A stretch of DNA of 64,000 nucleotides from Acidobacteriota bacterium (lineage in GTDB: Bacteria > Acidobacteriota > Vicinamibacteria > Vicinamibacterales > JAKQTR01): positions 62,001 through 126,000 of the forward strand of contig JAPKZO010000017.1 in the NCBI GenBank assembly GCA_026393755.1. The letters run 5' to 3'. Position 1 is the first letter of the stretch. Each line of letters opens with the position of its first letter. The position numbers and the translations under genes are program-made. Below the pieces are notes generated by a model, which was given only the letters and a program-made list of their open reading frames with translations, was not told the origin of the DNA and made no database searches. Positions 38,207 to 46,018 of this stretch are shown here, piece by piece.

Positions 38207-38357
38207 GACAGAACCTCCTTGCGGCGGATGACGCCGTGCCAGTTGTAGCGCAATCGCGCCGGCATCACAAGGGAATCCTCCCGCCGGCGCGCCCGCCGGA
38301 TTCCGCGTCACCGTGCTACGATCAGGCGGGCAACCAGCTCCCGGAGGAGTCAATTCC

Positions 38358-39128
38358 ATGCTACGTTCTCTCCGTTTGACCGGTCTCGTCCTGACAGGCC
38401 TCTACCTCGTCTCCGCGCCTTTCGCCGCCGCGCAGACCGCCAAGACGCCGGCGCAGGCCCCCAAGTCTGCCGCGCAGCCTGCACGACCCGCCGAAACGAC
38501 AGCGGCCGTGCCCGCGCTCGACGCGATGCACGAGATCATGCTGCCGATGTGGCACGACGCCTGGCCCAACAAGGACTACAAGGCGCTCGCCGCCATACTG
38601 CCGAATCTCGAGAAGCACCTCGCCGCGGTCAGCAGGGCGGAACTGCCTGGCATTCTTCGTGAAAAGAACCCGGTGTGGACCGCTGGTGTCGCCGAACTCA
38701 ACAAGGCCGGCGCCGACTACAAGGCGGCCGTCGCAGCCGACAAGAACGAGGATCTGCTCAAGGCCGCCGAAGCGCTCCACATGCAGTACGAGAAACTGGT
38801 GCGCGTGATCAAGCCGGTACTGCCTGAGCTGGATGATTTCCACGGCACCCTCTACGTGCTCTACCACAACCAGACGAATCCGCTCGTCGTGGCGAAGGTG
38901 ACCGCGTCGGTCGACACGCTCACGGTGAAGATGGCCGTCCTGAACCAGACGACGCTGCCCGACCGTCTCAAGGCCAGGACGGCGGAGTTCACGGCGCAGC
39001 GCGACCGTCTCGCTCGAGCGCTGACGGCCCTTGCCGGCACGCTGGCAAGCAAGGACGAGTTGAAGATCAGAGACGCCATCGAATTGATGCACGCGGAGTA
39101 CCAGAAGCTCGAGAAGGTCTTCGAGTAG
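38358..39128 (+). CDS. Secreted helical protein of unknown function
   Basis: A 256-residue protein with a signal peptide (MLRSLRLTGLVLTGLYLVSA, cleaved near FAAAQ) and an Ala/Pro/Lys-rich linker. The mature part is a regular helical bundle (MHEIMLPMWHDAWPNKDYKA, HMQYEKLVRVIKPVLPELDD, FHGTLYVLYH). The pattern recalls four-helix cytochrome c-prime or b562 folds, but there is no CxxCH, so covalent heme is excluded. GGAGGAG lies about 8 nt before the ATG. No function can be assigned. Confidence 0.8.
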   Translation: MLRSLRLTGLVLTGLYLVSAPFAAAQTAKTPAQAPKSAAQPARPAETTAAVPALDAMHEIMLPMWHDAWPNKDYKALAAILPNLEKHLAAVSRAELPGILREKNPVWTAGVAELNKAGADYKAAVAADKNEDLLKAAEALHMQYEKLVRVIKPVLPELDDFHGTLYVLYHNQTNPLVVAKVTASVDTLTVKMAVLNQTTLPDRLKARTAEFTAQRDRLARALTALAGTLASKDELKIRDAIELMHAEYQKLEKVFE

Positions 39129-39146: not shown

Positions 39147-39293
39147 ATGAGCCGTCATTACCTGATCGTCCGGCTGATCGCCTCGGCAGCGCTGGCCGCG
39201 TTTGTCTCGCCACCAGCCGCCAACTGTTCTTCTTGGTTCGAGGGGCCGCTACCGAAGCCGTGTCCTCCCGCCGGCATGGCGGTTCGCGCTTGA
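39147..39293 (+). CDS. Possible small secreted peptide (48 aa)
   Basis: A short frame starting 18 nt after the previous stop. It reads as a signal peptide (MSRHYLIVRLIASAALAAFV, then SPPAAN) followed by a Cys- and Pro-containing tail (CSSWFEGPLPKPCPP). There is no clear ribosome site, so translation would rely on coupling to the upstream gene. It may be a chance frame. Confidence 0.25.
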   Translation: MSRHYLIVRLIASAALAAFVSPPAANCSSWFEGPLPKPCPPAGMAVRA

Positions 39294-39342: not shown

Positions 39343-41355
39343 ATGGCCGCACTGCGAACGATTCGCACCGTGTGCCCGCGCAACTGCTATTGCACGTGCG
39401 GGATGCTCGTCACGCTCGACGAGCATGACGGGATCGTGCGGATTGAGGGCGATCCGGCCAATCCGGCCACCGACGGTCACGTCTGCCTCAAGGGATTGAG
39501 CTACGCCCGCCGAGTCGGCTACCGCGACCGGCTGCTCGCGCCCATGCGCCGGCGCCGCGACGGAGAGGGATTCGATCAGATCACGTGGGAGGAGGCGCTC
39601 TCTGAGATTGCCGACGCGCTGACGCGCATCCGCGGGAGTCATGGGCCATCGAGCGTGCTGTGCTACGAAGGCTCCGGATCGCATGGCGCGCTCAATGGGC
39701 TGTCGATGGCCTTCTGGAGGCAGTTCGGCGGGTGCACGACGACATACGGAGACCTGTGCTGGCCCGCCGGCCTCGAAGCGACGCGGCTGACCTACGGCGC
39801 GAACATCCACAATCACCCTCGTCTCACGCGAGAGAGCCGCTTCATTCTGATCTGGGGCCACAACCCGGCGGAGACCAACGTCCATCAGTGGCGGCTGATC
39901 CTGGATGCGCAAGCCCGCGGCGCGATCGTGGCGGTCGTCGATCCGCGCAGCACCGACACGACGGATGCCGCCGACGTCCACGTGCAGCCGCGCCCGGGGA
40001 CCGACGCGGCACTGGCGATGGGGCTCGCCCGCATCATCGTGGATGCCGGTCTGCACGACACGGCGTTCCTCGACGCCCACGCGTCGGGCTTCGAGCAGTA
40101 CCGCGCGCGCCTGGCCGAGTATCCCGTCGAACGCGTGGCCGAGATCACGGGCCTCGACCCCACGGCGATTCGCGACCTCGCACTGGCCTATGGCCGTACG
40201 CGTCCGGCGTTGCTCATCGCCGGCTTCGGGTTGCAGCGCCACCATCGGGCCGGCCAGACGATGAGGGCCGTCGCGCTGTTGCCGGCCGTCACGGGAAATG
40301 TGGGCGCGGCGGGCGGCGGATGGCAGTATGCCAATCTGGCCAGTCACTGTCTGCGCGCGTTGCCGCTGCCGCCGGAGCCGGCCGGGCTTCGTGCTATTCC
40401 CGTGTCGCAGGTGGCGCGTCATCTGGAAACGCTCACCGATCCTCCGATTCGGGCCGCGTGGATTGAGCGGGGTAATCCGTGCAGCCAGAACCCCGCCGCG
40501 CCACGAGTACGGGCTGGCCTCGGATCGCTCGACCTGGTGGTCGTGGTCGATCAGTTCATGACGCCGACCGCCGAGTGCGCCGACTTCGTGTTGCCGGCCA
40601 AGACACTGTTCGAAGAAGAGGATCTGGTTACCGCGTATTGGCATCCATACGTGCAATGGCGCGCAAAGATTCTCGATCCGCCAGGCGAGGTGAAACCGGA
40701 AAGCGAGATCTGGCGGCTGCTGTGCGAGCGATTCGGGTACGAGACCACGTGGTTCCCAACTGACCGGATCGCGTATCTGCGTGCGTTGCTCCCGGCGGGC
40801 TACGAGTTGGCGCTCGAGGGTCTGATGGAGCGGCCGCTGGATCTGTCCGGAGGCGGTGACGTCGCGTTCGCCGATCGGCGTTTTCCGACGCCATCGGGAA
40901 AGGTACAGTTCGCCGCAGACGAGGCCACGGAGCGTTGGGGCGTTGAGGCCGTCCCGGCATACGCCCCCCTGGACGAGGGCCACGCCTCGGCGCTGGCGAG
41001 CCGTCTCCCCTTGCAACTCCTTTCCTGCAAGACGCGCGATCGGATTCACTCGCAGTTCGGCAACCTCGACTGGGTGCGCGAGGTCGAGCGGTCGCACGTG
41101 CTCGACATCAATCCGCACGACGCATCGGCGCGCCGCATCACGGACGGCGGCCGCGTCGCCGTGTGGAATGATCGCGGCCGCATCGAGGTCACGGCGCGGG
41201 TGACAGCGGGCATCAGGGCTGGCGTTGTACACATCCTCGAAGGCTGGAGTCACGCGGGCGATCCCGATGTGAACGCGCTCACGGCCGAAGGGATCACCGA
41301 CATGAACCACGGCGCGACGTTCTACGAGTGCCTCGTCGACGTGGAGCGCATATGA
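39343..41355 (+). CDS. Molybdopterin oxidoreductase, DMSO reductase superfamily catalytic subunit
   Basis: A 670-residue Mo- or W-bis-PGD enzyme. The N-terminal [4Fe-4S] site is Cx3Cx3Cx28C (residues 11, 15, 19, 48), followed by the pterin domains (VLCYEGSGSHGALNGL, FILIWGHNPAETN, VVDPRSTDT) and the C-terminal molydopterin-dinucleotide barrel (LQLLSCKTRDRIHSQFGN). At 670 residues it is shorter than DmsA or NarG. No Tat signal is present, so it should face the cytoplasm unless exported with a partner. ATG 39343 is the first Met of the conserved N-terminus. The stop overlaps the next gene by 4 nt. The substrate (S-oxide, thiosulfate, polysulfide or other) is not predictable. Confidence 0.9.
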   Translation: MAALRTIRTVCPRNCYCTCGMLVTLDEHDGIVRIEGDPANPATDGHVCLKGLSYARRVGYRDRLLAPMRRRRDGEGFDQITWEEALSEIADALTRIRGSHGPSSVLCYEGSGSHGALNGLSMAFWRQFGGCTTTYGDLCWPAGLEATRLTYGANIHNHPRLTRESRFILIWGHNPAETNVHQWRLILDAQARGAIVAVVDPRSTDTTDAADVHVQPRPGTDAALAMGLARIIVDAGLHDTAFLDAHASGFEQYRARLAEYPVERVAEITGLDPTAIRDLALAYGRTRPALLIAGFGLQRHHRAGQTMRAVALLPAVTGNVGAAGGGWQYANLASHCLRALPLPPEPAGLRAIPVSQVARHLETLTDPPIRAAWIERGNPCSQNPAAPRVRAGLGSLDLVVVVDQFMTPTAECADFVLPAKTLFEEEDLVTAYWHPYVQWRAKILDPPGEVKPESEIWRLLCERFGYETTWFPTDRIAYLRALLPAGYELALEGLMERPLDLSGGGDVAFADRRFPTPSGKVQFAADEATERWGVEAVPAYAPLDEGHASALASRLPLQLLSCKTRDRIHSQFGNLDWVREVERSHVLDINPHDASARRITDGGRVAVWNDRGRIEVTARVTAGIRAGVVHILEGWSHAGDPDVNALTAEGITDMNHGATFYECLVDVERI

Positions 41356-41936
41356 GCCGCGCGGGATTCCTCGTTAATCTGCATCGGTGCGTCGGATGCG
41401 GTTCGTGCGTACTCGCGTGCCGGATCGAGAACGGCCGAGCCGAGGAACTGGCGTGGCGGCGCGTGCTGCCGCTGAACCTGCGGCGGCACGCTGCCGGCCC
41501 GACGTATTTCCTGTCGGTCGCGTGCCACCACTGCGACGATCCCGCGTGCCTGCGAGGATGCCCCTCACGCGCCTACGAGAAGCGCGCGGACGGCGTCGTC
41601 GTGCATCACGAAGACCGGTGCGTGGGCTGCCGGTACTGCGAGATGACCTGCCCGTTCGGCACGCCGAAGTACGATGAGCACCAGGGCGTCGTCTCCAAGT
41701 GCCATCTCTGCGCGCACCGGATCGAGCAGGGGCTCGCACCGGCATGCGTCGCCGCGTGTCCGACGGGAGCGCTGCGGTACCAAGGACCTGGCACCGGCGC
41801 GGACGGTGACTCGCGTGCCGGTGTGCCGGGATTCGTTGATCCGGCGGGGTGCAGGCCGAACATCCGGTTTGTTGCGCCGGGAGGCGCGCGCCGTACGGCG
41901 TTGTTCAACGCGCTCGAGGAGGCGATGCGGCGATGA
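41352..41936 (+). CDS. 4Fe-4S ferredoxin subunit (DmsB/PsrB-like)
   Basis: A 194-residue electron-transfer subunit with four cysteine clusters: CVGCGSCVLAC (residues 13-23), CHHCDDPACLRGCP, CVGCRYCEMTCPFG and CHLCAHRIEQGLAPACVAAC. This is the four-cubane layout of DmsB and PsrB, which link a membrane quinol site to the molybdenum subunit. Its ATG overlaps the upstream stop (ATGA), and its own stop overlaps the next ATG the same way, so the three genes form a tightly coupled operon. Confidence 0.93.
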   Translation: MSRAGFLVNLHRCVGCGSCVLACRIENGRAEELAWRRVLPLNLRRHAAGPTYFLSVACHHCDDPACLRGCPSRAYEKRADGVVVHHEDRCVGCRYCEMTCPFGTPKYDEHQGVVSKCHLCAHRIEQGLAPACVAACPTGALRYQGPGTGADGDSRAGVPGFVDPAGCRPNIRFVAPGGARRTALFNALEEAMRR

Positions 41937-42859
41937 GTCAATCGCGCAGCAGGACTCCGGTTCACACCGCCGACGATTCGTCCGTGGCTCCCCTGCCAGC
42001 GCACGACATTCACTTGCCGCGTTCGTCACGATCCTCGGGTCGGAAGATGTCAAACCACGCACCACTCGTATGGTTCACCAGCCTCGCCATCGGCGGGGCC
42101 GGCATCATCGCCGCAGCAGCATGGCACATGCGGACTGATCTCCCGTCGCAGGCGGTTGCGTTGGCGGCGGGCGCAGTTGCGCTGGGCGCCGCCCTGATCG
42201 TCTCGACACTCCATCTCGGCCGGAAGACGCGCGCCCCGCTTGTCGCGCGCGGCGTTGGCCGGAGCGAGCTCAGCCGCGAAGTCCTGTTGGCCGGAGCAAC
42301 CCTCGGCGCGAGCATCGCGCTCCTGGTGATGCACTGGCAAGGCCACCCGGTTGCTTGGCTCAAATTCGCCGCGGCCGCCACTGCGGTCCTGTTCCTCCTG
42401 TCGATCGGACTGGTGTATCGGCTGGGTGGCCAGCGGACGTGGCACGGCGCGACCGTGCTGCTGCCACTGACGACCGGACTGGTATGTGGCGAGGTGTTTC
42501 TGCTGGCGATTGGCAGCGCGGCATTGAGGGGAATCAGTGTGGCGATGTGGGCCATTGCGGCCGATGCCGCGGTCTTCGTCGTCCGGAGGTGGTCGCTGGC
42601 CCGAAGTGCTTTTCCGCTCACCGAGCAGGGTACCGACGCCAACCGGTTCCTCAAGCTCTCAGATGCACGCCCGTTCCTCTTCAATGTGCTTCCGTCCCTG
42701 TTCCTGATCTGGCATGCCGCCGGCTTCGCCCTGCTCGCGGTCGCGATGGGGCTGGTGCTGGACCGATGGGCCTTCTATGCGCTCGCCGATCAGCACACGA
42801 CCGAGGCCGAGATCGCCCGTGTCGAGGATGTCATCGAGCGCGGATCGCGATTCGGATAA
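41933..42859 (+). CDS. DmsC-like membrane anchor subunit
   Basis: About 308 residues with roughly eight hydrophobic helices (PLVWFTSLAIGGAGIIAAAA, EVLLAGATLGASIALLVMHW, AVLFLLSIGLVYRLGG, and others), fitting the DmsC quinol-oxidising anchor. ATG 41933 overlaps the upstream stop, but the first 38 residues are Ser/Arg-rich and unlike DmsC; ATG 42047 (MSNHAPLVWF) would give a more typical N-terminus. It completes a DmsABC-like complex that would pass quinol electrons to the catalytic subunit. Confidence 0.85.
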   Translation: MSQSRSRTPVHTADDSSVAPLPAHDIHLPRSSRSSGRKMSNHAPLVWFTSLAIGGAGIIAAAAWHMRTDLPSQAVALAAGAVALGAALIVSTLHLGRKTRAPLVARGVGRSELSREVLLAGATLGASIALLVMHWQGHPVAWLKFAAAATAVLFLLSIGLVYRLGGQRTWHGATVLLPLTTGLVCGEVFLLAIGSAALRGISVAMWAIAADAAVFVVRRWSLARSAFPLTEQGTDANRFLKLSDARPFLFNVLPSLFLIWHAAGFALLAVAMGLVLDRWAFYALADQHTTEAEIARVEDVIERGSRFG

Positions 42860-43045: not shown

Positions 43046-44638
43046 ATGCGGATGAATCGTCATCTTCTCGTGTTAGCGGTGGTGGGATTCGTACTCGCCG
43101 TGAAGTCGGTGCCGGTGGCCATCGGGACCGCTTTGCAGGGCGGCGCAACGAACGCCGTTCTGCGGCTGGCGACTACAACGAGCACGGCGGACAGCGGCCT
43201 GCTGAGCGCGCTGCTGCCTGATTTCGAGCGCCAGTGCGGTTGTCGCGTCGACGTCGTGGCCGTCGGAACGGGTCAAGCGCTGGAACTCGGCCGGCGCGGT
43301 GACGTGGATGTCCTGCTGGTACACGCGCGTGAGGCCGAGGATGCGTTTGTCGCCGAAGGCCACGCCACGCGTCGCGACGATGTGATGTACAACGACTTCG
43401 TCATCGTCGGCCCAGGGGCGGATCCGGCCGGGATCGGCAAGACGAAGCTGGCCGTCGACGCATTCAAGGCGATTGCCGGGGCGAAGGCGCCGTTTGCGAG
43501 CCGCGGAGACAAGTCGGGGACACAGATCAAGGAACTCGCGCTCTGGAAGTCAGCCGGTCTCGCACCCACCAGGGAGGTGGCCTGGTACCTATCGGTCGGC
43601 CAGGGCATGGGCGAAACCTTGACGTTCGCCGACGAGCGTCAGGCGTACACGCTGAGCGATCGCGCCACGTGGCTCGCCATGCGCAGCAAACTGACCGGGC
43701 TTCGGTTGTTGTTTGGCGGTGAGACGCTCAAGGCCAACCCCGACCGCGATCTGCACAACGACTACGGCGTGATCGCCATTAGTCCTGCGAAACACCCGTC
43801 GGTTCAGGCGGCGCTCGCCGGGCGCTTCGTCGAGTGGGTTCTCTCGAAGCCGACCCAGGCCCGCATCGGCGCATTTGGCGTCGACCGTGTGGGCCAGCCG
43901 CTGTTCTATCCGAATTCTGAAGAACTGAAGGCCGCGACCTTGCTGCGAGTCCAGGTGGGACCGCTGTCGCGCACCTTCACGATTGACCAACTCAAGGCGC
44001 TGCCGAAGGTGACGCTGCCGAACCACGAGATCACCGGTGTCCGACGCGGCAAGATCGGGCCGACCTCCTGGGCCGGCGCCTCGCTGGTTGACGTCCTCCG
44101 CTCAGTCGATCCCACCGTTGCGGACACGAAGCACGGCGCTGAGCACATCGTGCTGACGAGCAGCGACGGCTACACCGTGACGTTGAGGTGGACGGAGCTG
44201 TTTGGTCTGGTCTCGAAAGGCGAGCGGGTCTATCTCGCGAAAGGCTGCAACGAGTGCCATGGCGCGAATGGGGAGGGCACGGCCCCGGCCGGCAAGCGGC
44301 CAGCACCGGCATTGGCCCGGCGCGCCTTCGATGCGAAGATGGCGGCAGCCGCGATCCGCGATCCGGCTCGGCATGCGGGAATCGGCGTCTTTACGACGGC
44401 GAATCTCACAGACCAGGACGTGGCGGCGATGCTCGGGTGGTTGAAGAATCCGGCGACCCCGCTGCGGCAGGCTGGGACCGACGCCAGCCCCGCGTCTCGC
44501 GTCGTCGTGCTGGCCTACCAACGCGACGGCCGGCCGATGACCGGGCGCGACGGCCTCATTCAACTGGTCGTCGCCAGCGACGAGTTCGCATCGCGTTACT
44601 CGCACTGGGTGACATCAATCACGGTGCGCTATCGATAG
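43046..44638 (+). CDS. TupA-like tungstate-binding protein fused to a sulfite-oxidase-like domain with inserted cytochrome c
   Basis: A 530-residue exported protein with three parts. Signal peptide about 1-30. Residues about 35-290 match tungstate-binding TupA: LRLATTTSTADSGLLSALLP, VVAVGTGQALELGRRGDVDV, MYNDFVIVGPGADPAGI and SRGDKSGTQIKE. From about 295 a sulfite-oxidase-like beta domain begins (FTIDQLKALP, SWAGASLVDVLRSV, SSDGYTVTLRWTELF). It is then broken by a class I cytochrome c domain with CNECH at 401-405 and an NLTDQDVAAMLGWLK helix. The beta domain resumes (VVVLAYQRDGRPM ... YSHWVTSITVRY). No Met sits at the usual distal heme-ligand position. TupB- and TupC-like genes follow directly. 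A redox-coupled or redox-sensing binding protein is an inference. Confidence 0.85.
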   Translation: MRMNRHLLVLAVVGFVLAVKSVPVAIGTALQGGATNAVLRLATTTSTADSGLLSALLPDFERQCGCRVDVVAVGTGQALELGRRGDVDVLLVHAREAEDAFVAEGHATRRDDVMYNDFVIVGPGADPAGIGKTKLAVDAFKAIAGAKAPFASRGDKSGTQIKELALWKSAGLAPTREVAWYLSVGQGMGETLTFADERQAYTLSDRATWLAMRSKLTGLRLLFGGETLKANPDRDLHNDYGVIAISPAKHPSVQAALAGRFVEWVLSKPTQARIGAFGVDRVGQPLFYPNSEELKAATLLRVQVGPLSRTFTIDQLKALPKVTLPNHEITGVRRGKIGPTSWAGASLVDVLRSVDPTVADTKHGAEHIVLTSSDGYTVTLRWTELFGLVSKGERVYLAKGCNECHGANGEGTAPAGKRPAPALARRAFDAKMAAAAIRDPARHAGIGVFTTANLTDQDVAAMLGWLKNPATPLRQAGTDASPASRVVVLAYQRDGRPMTGRDGLIQLVVASDEFASRYSHWVTSITVRYR

Positions 44639-44675: not shown

Positions 44676-45296
44676 GTGGTGGCCCTCACCTTCCGCGTGA
44701 CCGGCATCGCACTGCTGCTGGCGGCCGTCATCGGCGTGCCCGTGGGCGCCGCCCTGGGTCTCGCGCGCTTTCCGGGCCGCCGCCTCGTGACGCTCGTGCT
44801 CTACACCGGCATGGGCCTGCCGCCGGTCGTCGTCGGGCTGTTCGTCTACATGGTGGTCTCAAGAAGCGGCCCGTTTGGCGATCTCGGATGGCTGTTTACG
44901 CCCGCCGCCATGATCGCAGCGCAAACCATCATCGCGTTTCCGCTGGTCGCGGCGCTCACGATGAGCGCGGTGGACGGCGTCGATCGGGATCTGCGCCTGC
45001 AGGTCCGGGCGCTCGGCGCGACCCGCTGGCAACTGGCGTGGACTGTTCTTCGGGAGGCTCGCATCGGCGTCACGGCGGCGATTGTCGCCGCGTTCGGCGG
45101 CATCATTTCCGAAGTGGGTGCCGTGATGCTGGTCGGCGGAAACATCGAGGGCCAGACGCGAGTGCTGACGACGGCGATTGTGCTCTATGCGCGCCAGGGT
45201 GATTTCGCCCTTGCTATGGCACTCGGCATCATCCTTATCGCGCTTGCACTCGTGGCCAACGTCGTCCTGCTCCAACTCCAGGGACGGTCGCGATGA
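44676..45296 (+). CDS. Tungstate-type ABC transporter permease (TupB-like)
   Basis: A 206-residue permease with about five membrane helices. It carries the TupB-typical GMGLPPVVVGLFVYMVVSRSG and the ATPase-docking EAA-like loop VRALGATRWQLAWTVLREAR. The family usually has about 20 more N-terminal residues. The frame is open upstream to 44613 and encodes a plausible helix (SILRALGEPALIA) but has no ATG, GTG or TTG there; CTG 44667 with GGAGAG 6 nt upstream is a candidate. GTG 44676 is given as the conservative start. The stop overlaps the ATPase ATG by 4 nt. Confidence 0.88.
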   Translation: MVALTFRVTGIALLLAAVIGVPVGAALGLARFPGRRLVTLVLYTGMGLPPVVVGLFVYMVVSRSGPFGDLGWLFTPAAMIAAQTIIAFPLVAALTMSAVDGVDRDLRLQVRALGATRWQLAWTVLREARIGVTAAIVAAFGGIISEVGAVMLVGGNIEGQTRVLTTAIVLYARQGDFALAMALGIILIALALVANVVLLQLQGRSR

Positions 45297-46018
45297 GTGG
45301 TGCCGCACTCGCCTACCGCATCACCGGGTTGCGCCACTGCTACGGCGACCGCATTGTGCTCGATGTGCCGGCGCTCGACATCGCGCGCGGCGAGACGCTG
45401 GCCGTCATTGGCCCGAGCGGCGCGGGCAAGTCCACGCTGCTGCGCCTGCTGCAGTTTCTCGAACCCCCGACGGTGGGCCGGATTGAGTATGCCGGAGCGC
45501 CAGTTGCTTATCCGATGCCGATCGAGATCAGCCGGACCGTCACCACGGTGTTCCAGCGGTCGCTCATGCTGGACCGATCAGTCCGCGCCAATGTCGCCTT
45601 CGGGCGCCGTCTCCGCGGCCGCCGGGAACTCGCCGATGTCGACGCCCTGCTGGGGCGCTTGGCGCTGAAGCACTTGGTCAGCGCGCCGGCGAGGTCGCTC
45701 TCGGGCGGCGAGATGCAACGCGTGGCGCTCGCCCGCGCCATGGCGACCTGCGCCGACGTCCTGCTGCTCGACGAACCGGCGGCGAACCTCGACCCCCGAA
45801 ACGTCGCGATCGTCGAAACGATGATCAAGGAACTGCAGGGGCTGGGCACGACACTGGTGCTCGTCACGCACAACACGCACGAAGCCCGTCGCCTGGCGTC
45901 GCGCACACTGGTCCTGCTGGACGGACGCATGATCGAGGTGGGCCAGACCGCCACGGTGTTCGATTCGCCGTCCGACCCGCGAACGAGCAGCTTCCTCAGC
46001 GGCGGCCTCGTGTACTGA
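45293..46018 (+). CDS. Tungstate-type ABC transporter ATP-binding protein (TupC-like)
   Basis: A 241-residue ABC ATPase. Walker A is GPSGAGKSTLLRLLQ, the Q-loop lies in TTVFQRSLMLD, the signature is LSGGEMQRVALARAM, Walker B is VLLLDEPAANLDP and the H-loop is VTHNTHEARRLA. The ATG overlaps the permease stop (ATGA). With the fused binding protein and permease it makes a complete oxyanion importer, presumably supplying tungsten or molybdenum for the DMSO-reductase-family enzyme upstream. Confidence 0.93.
   Translation: MSGAALAYRITGLRHCYGDRIVLDVPALDIARGETLAVIGPSGAGKSTLLRLLQFLEPPTVGRIEYAGAPVAYPMPIEISRTVTTVFQRSLMLDRSVRANVAFGRRLRGRRELADVDALLGRLALKHLVSAPARSLSGGEMQRVALARAMATCADVLLLDEPAANLDPRNVAIVETMIKELQGLGTTLVLVTHNTHEARRLASRTLVLLDGRMIEVGQTATVFDSPSDPRTSSFLSGGLVY

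Follow-up and report, generated by a model that had tools for sequence, protein, structure and literature searches.

The gene described here lies at positions 43046 to 44638 of the window, that is, of the whole 64,000-nucleotide stretch of Acidobacteriota DNA that was analysed; it is on the forward strand, as are all the window neighbours mentioned below, and is single-copy in the 4.43 Mb genome. Its frame, uninterrupted along 530 amino acids, would encode, according to Pfam and the orthologues, a secreted fusion in which a tungstate-binding domain of the TupA type is followed by the first part of a sulfite-oxidase-like (SUOX-like) domain, a cytochrome c domain and the second part of the SUOX-like domain. 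The Pfam matches were PBP_like_2 at residues 40-268 (1e-44), Oxidored_molyb (PF00174) at residues 309-401, above its cutoff, and Cytochrom_C at residues 390-468 (2.8e-8). A putative Sec-type signal peptide occupies approximately residues 1-29 (43046-43132) and is recognized by eye from the hydrophobic run LLVLAVVGFVLAV, followed by AIGTA. The original prediction had already described this ORF, its coordinates and a set of motifs, all of which were confirmed at their places: TTTST, CNECH, ELFG (residues 384-387), VVVLAY (from 486) and RYSHWV (from 517).

The genes tupB and tupC adjoin the fused tupA in the window. The TupB-type permease (44676-45296) reached 253 bits with model NF038017 (cutoff 100) and 154.6 bits with the TupB model NF041773, below the 320 cutoff of the latter; the TupC-type ATPase (45293-46018; ABC_tran, 1e-28) comes after TupB in every fused genome. 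Upstream lies a DmsABC-like complex, composed of a molybdopterin (bis-MGD) oxidoreductase catalytic subunit (39343-41355; PF00384, 5e-48), whose start is the probable one in an ORF that opens at 39202, a DmsB-like 4Fe-4S subunit (41328-41936) assigned by Pfam and NCBIfam profiles, and a DmsC-like membrane anchor (41849-42859; PF04976, 8e-6), given with its ORF limits, the true start being probably further in. The NCBIfam models closest to the catalytic subunit, dmsA_ynfE and formate dehydrogenase alpha, gave near-equal scores well below cutoff. Further upstream of the oxidoreductase genes there is a conserved ORF of 271 amino acids (38313-39128), also found in the same-family genome G058 and matching no Pfam family.

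The binding domain spans residues 39-292 (43160-43921). The solved structures closest to it by sequence were tungstate-binding proteins, 3lr1 (2e-72) and 5my5 (9e-58), and the NCBIfam TupA model was matched at residues 31-292 with an E value of 7.8e-60 and 202.5 bits versus an equivalog cutoff of 400 bits; with a score below that cutoff, the receptor is to be called TupA-like. In TupA the oxyanion site is built by the TTTS motif, Arg118, Thr124 and Asp170 (PMC5517513). The corresponding residues are kept in the fusion, where TTTST (residues 43-47; 43172-43186), SRGDKSGT (43499-43522), with the equivalents of Arg118 and Thr124, and SDR line up with the solved site. The binding domain therefore looks functional, as far as an alignment can tell. 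The TupA proteins of TupABC systems of Desulfovibrio alaskensis (5my5) and Geobacter sulfurreducens (3lr1) share with the fusion the whole binding domain, the TTTS and SRGDxSGT motifs and the TupB and TupC genes downstream; however, the solved proteins stop after the binding domain, whereas the fusion runs on for about 240 residues made up of the SUOX-like and cytochrome c parts, hereafter the module.

Within the module, the first SUOX-like part (residues 300-386; 43943-44203) contains no Cys, the inserted monoheme cytochrome c domain of class-I type (PF00034) covers approximately residues 387-478 (44204-44479), with limits taken from profiles and homologues, and the second SUOX-like part closes the protein (residues 482-530; 44489-44635). 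When PF00174 was compared with the separate pieces, the first half alone scored 25.5 bits and the second half alone gave no match, but the two halves joined reached 41.6 bits (cutoff 24) and covered positions 24-161 of the 169 of the model. Three orthologues joined in the same way, and the joined module of the more distant genome G309 described below, scored 33.5-36.5 bits. When 297 genomes of the phylum were searched with a profile of the joined form, many natural SUOX-like proteins came up in which both segments are contiguous, separated by only about 8-10 residues, and 16 of these uncut natural homologues were used to build a second profile. Aligned to the native module, the second profile placed its positions 14-100 at module residues 4-93 and its positions 93-143 at module residues 179-229, so that two abutting pieces of profile flank an insert of about 86 residues. 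The joined module scored 66.9 bits with this profile, the first half 23.8 bits, and constructs with a shuffled second half 23.2 bits on average; the two-piece pattern around the insert was present in all seven module sequences. As read from these profiles, a cytochrome c domain is inserted in a SUOX-derived domain, in the loop preceding its last beta segment. The predicted layout, TupA followed by a SUOX-like domain that a cytochrome c interrupts, was thus right by Pfam, by the joined-half scores and by the profile of uncut homologues.

AlphaFold models of the module alone and of the full protein were built from alignments of three sequences only; their confidence was low (pLDDT 45 and 34, respectively), and hence the conclusion that the beta domain closes around the cytochrome rests on sequence profiles. 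Foldseek found no significant match. A structural second look (VIA) with a weak model placed SoxC, PruR and SorT highest (Z 6.7-7.5), with both flanks of the cytochrome within one alignment; this is consistent with nesting, though too weak to stand alone. Superantigen rows in that comparison were discarded as beta-grasp noise.

The only cysteines after residue 280 are those of the heme pair, 401 and 404, and the place of the metal-ligand Cys of the SUOX-like part holds no Cys in any of the seven sequences. Going by this alignment, the SUOX-like part should not be read as a molybdoenzyme, since it offers no Cys for a molybdenum or tungsten cofactor; of the molybdopterin fold suggested initially, the SUOX-type domain stands by profile, but the molybdoenzyme reading does not. 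The heme attachment motif CNECH (residues 401-405; 44246-44260) is conserved, CNECHG being invariant in the seven sequences. No conserved distal Met near the C-terminal helix was found across them. His443 (44372-44374), placed three to four residues before the usual position of that Met, is invariant in all seven and is the likely sixth heme ligand, as judged from its conservation. With bis-His ligation, the heme would be expected to be of low potential, suited to reducing conditions. Comparison of the window gene with that of G058 gave dN/dS values (Jukes-Cantor) of about 0.22 for the TupA part, 0.44 and 0.14 for the first and second SUOX-like halves and 0.37 for the cytochrome. Estimated from this pair, all segments are under purifying selection, strongest on the last SUOX-like piece; the latter, with a dN of 0.16 and an invariant RYSHWV, is the best-conserved part of the module.

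The same architecture was sought in other genomes, as the original prediction had proposed, and was found in five others of the order. The full module is present in 6 of the 162 genomes of the order, three from one family (the window's genome, G056 and G058) and three from another (G041, G044 and G045), always at the C-terminus of TupA and with TupB and TupC following. In the five further genomes the gene is one open frame, complete or interrupted only where a contig ends, the gene of G056 being split between two contigs. In the TupA tree the fused sequences fall into one clade (support 98/97), which also holds G059, G040 and a truncated G057. G059, of the same genus as the window's genome, keeps the whole operon, with 82-94% identity for most genes and 60% for DmsC. 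Its TupA ends after FYPNS and a short tail up to VTSITVR, which corresponds to the last residues of the window protein bar two, and the alignment of both DNAs showed that the module is deleted in G059. The deletion with its leftover end codons implies that the fused form was ancestral there and that the module was lost. G040 also lacks the module, its TupB coming directly after TupA. The module can be lost while the transporter genes stay.

Apart from these six genomes of the order, searches of the phylum found the module only in G309, short cytochrome-only matches having been set aside. A scan of genome contigs with short exact peptides returned two relatives, both orthologues from this order; no relative was found in viral contigs, and plasmids gave TupA-only matches, none spanning 80% of the query. 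The sample is small, seven module sequences, six of them from one order.

In G309, which lies outside the order, the module is a separate protein (L043, 9436-10221) with an apparent signal peptide and 46-47% identity. The opposite strand encodes AFOR_N, a NuoF-like subunit, AFOR_C in fusion with iron-sulfur domains, and TupA, TupB and TupC; downstream, the module gene is followed by genes for a small membrane protein and MoeA and by others that look like cofactor genes. The TupA of G309 is sister to the fused clade (80/84). The module and TupA genes of G309 are on opposite strands and about 6 kb apart, and direct contact between the two proteins is therefore not implied. Chance is an unlikely reason for one lineage to have the module fused to the receptor and another to have it within a tungsten-enzyme cluster. 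On this gene-context evidence, a link of the module with tungsten, independent of the fusion, is well supported, and the proposed relation with tungsten uptake gains from both the conserved downstream TupB and TupC and the separate copy in the cluster. An AFOR_C protein is encoded in every module-bearing genome, and also in G059 and G057, where no module was detected; the module is hence an accessory, not a requirement for tungsten use.

The tungsten aldehyde oxidoreductase of G309 is itself split, its two pieces (L043, 3776-5758 and 8189-9211, both on the reverse strand) having the NuoF-like gene between them; AFOR_N has an ORF to itself, and in the fused AFOR_C protein the 2Fe-2S and 4Fe-4S domains come first. 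The small membrane protein that follows the G309 module (L043, 10218-10646) carries an SHMPGSWRHYS-like motif at its end and matched no Pfam or NCBIfam model. Its homologues (L094-L101) occur in nine of ten genomes, missing only in G059, the genome that lost the module. A link between this protein and the module was set aside, as homologues are found elsewhere in unrelated contexts.

As the best explanation as a whole, tentative and a little short of probable, we propose that the fusion is a working periplasmic TupA for TupBC with a C-terminal redox accessory module that tunes tungstate handling. In the model, the gene would give rise to an exported receptor serving the importer encoded downstream, to whose C-terminus the redox module has been added. 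Heme c would be attached in the periplasm, and the module would exchange electrons with the periplasmic cytochrome pool. The SUOX-like pocket would hold either a partner protein or a small ligand that is not a bound molybdenum cofactor; this ligand would be an oxyanion or, by analogy with PruR, perhaps a pterin. The redox state of the heme and of the pocket would then report on, or tune, the handling of tungstate by TupABC, for example by promoting uptake when conditions are reducing, as they are where tungsten enzymes operate. Redox tuning of tungstate handling appears to be the most likely reading of the module. A gated receptor, in which tungstate would be captured or released according to the periplasmic redox state, or to the binding of a pterin, through a heme nested in a cofactor-free sulfite-oxidase fold, is possible but on the unlikely side.

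A module acting in docking or localisation, which would anchor TupA to the membrane or a partner or orient it there, with the heme as a structural element or a relic, is rather improbable. The strong conservation of the last SUOX-like segment, with its low dN and its invariant RYSHWV, would fit such a role, and so would the small membrane-protein gene located after the G309 module, with homologues in nine of the ten genomes tested. However, those homologues also appear in unrelated contexts, and both the invariance of CNECHG in seven out of seven sequences and the purifying selection on the cytochrome part speak against this reading. We consider it improbable too that the module is an enzyme acting on metal species, e.g. 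one by which tungstate or molybdate would have its redox or sulfidation state altered before uptake, the heme giving or receiving the electrons. Such an activity would fit a module whose heme domain is nested in a formerly catalytic fold, which is sited on a tungstate receptor and which is found separately in a tungsten cluster; but the SUOX-like part lacks the cofactor Cys, the TupA proteins already known need no module to bind tungstate, which is a W(VI) oxyanion, and G059 and G040 have lost the module and kept TupABC.

The idea of a receptor recycled as electron carrier, put forward in the original prediction, found no support. In it, the fusion would be a periplasmic carrier for the upstream DmsABC-like oxidoreductase, TupA serving as scaffold or as a dual-use domain. 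It is true that the oxidoreductase is directly upstream of the fusion in family f1 and that each of the nine fused-clade genomes encodes its catalytic subunit, but the linkage is restricted to family f1, and in family f4 the oxidoreductase is elsewhere in the genome. In addition, G059 and G040 keep the oxidoreductase without the module, and in G309, where the module is present, the threshold used returned no oxidoreductase of this kind. Inspection of the catalytic subunit by eye revealed no Tat signal, which would put this subunit across the membrane from the proposed carrier. Together with the intact ligand motifs of TupA and with the TupBC genes that follow in all fused genomes, these patterns leave that proposal quite improbable. 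The DmsABC-like complex could itself be a tungsten enzyme, having tupABC behind it. Finally, an assembly or sequencing error joining unrelated genes was rejected as practically inconceivable, because the same architecture is shared by six separately assembled genomes at about 49-58% identity, and the genus-mate G059 displays an internal deletion of it.

Comparison with known proteins sets the module apart from its closest relatives. PruR is an exported SUOX-type protein without the metal-binding Cys that binds reduced pterins (PMC13259868). The module shares with it the exported SUOX-type fold and the missing Cys, the export being predicted here from the signal peptide seen by eye, and PruR was near the top in the structural second look (Z 6.9) with the low-confidence model. 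However, PruR is a separate protein of about 170 amino acids, has neither heme nor TupA and works with DcpA, and the solved PruR was absent from the sequence matches of the joined profile up to an E value of 10. The enzymes of the SUOX family (plant sulfite oxidase 1ogp, SorT, SoxC and YedY/MsrP) share the domain by profile (PF00174; 5e-6 for 1ogp) but differ in the metal-ligand Cys, absent here. The cytochrome partners of SorT and SoxC are separate chains, with no insert inside the fold.

Each of the domains is known, and their combination was not found described within the literature and plasmids searched; for an ABC-importer receptor carrying a cytochrome nested in a Cys-less SUOX fold, no description appeared in the literature covered, mostly non-subscription. 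Receptors of ABC importers are usually seen as passive ligand catchers, and here the receptor carries a heme module, in which a sulfite-oxidase fold without its metal ligand is used as the frame for a nested cytochrome. Standing alone in a tungsten-enzyme cluster as well, the module becomes a new candidate for a part in bacterial tungsten metabolism. If redox active, it would offer a direct link between cellular redox state and the import of a redox-cofactor metal, and, were redox gating true, tungsten uptake would be coupled to the conditions where tungsten enzymes are usable. The natural deletion in G059 offers a ready comparison.

Other Acidobacteriota proteins combine the same elements in a different way. 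The tandem Cys-less SUOX-like proteins L125, L126 and L138 share with the module SUOX-like domains bearing a heme c motif (CxxCH), but the motif is in another loop, in a short insertion only, and there is neither a class-I cytochrome domain nor TupA. L123 is, like L125 and L126, a tandem SUOX-like protein with one CxxCH in a different loop. The motif positions in these three suggest that heme was added to Cys-less SUOX folds more than once. In L138 (862-2658), L130 and L131, a tetrapyrrole methylase is joined to tandem Cys-less SUOX-like domains, the methylase match (PF00590) being that of L138, and the CxxCH of L138 falls in its first SUOX-like repeat, an odd mix of SUOX fold, heme motif and tetrapyrrole chemistry.
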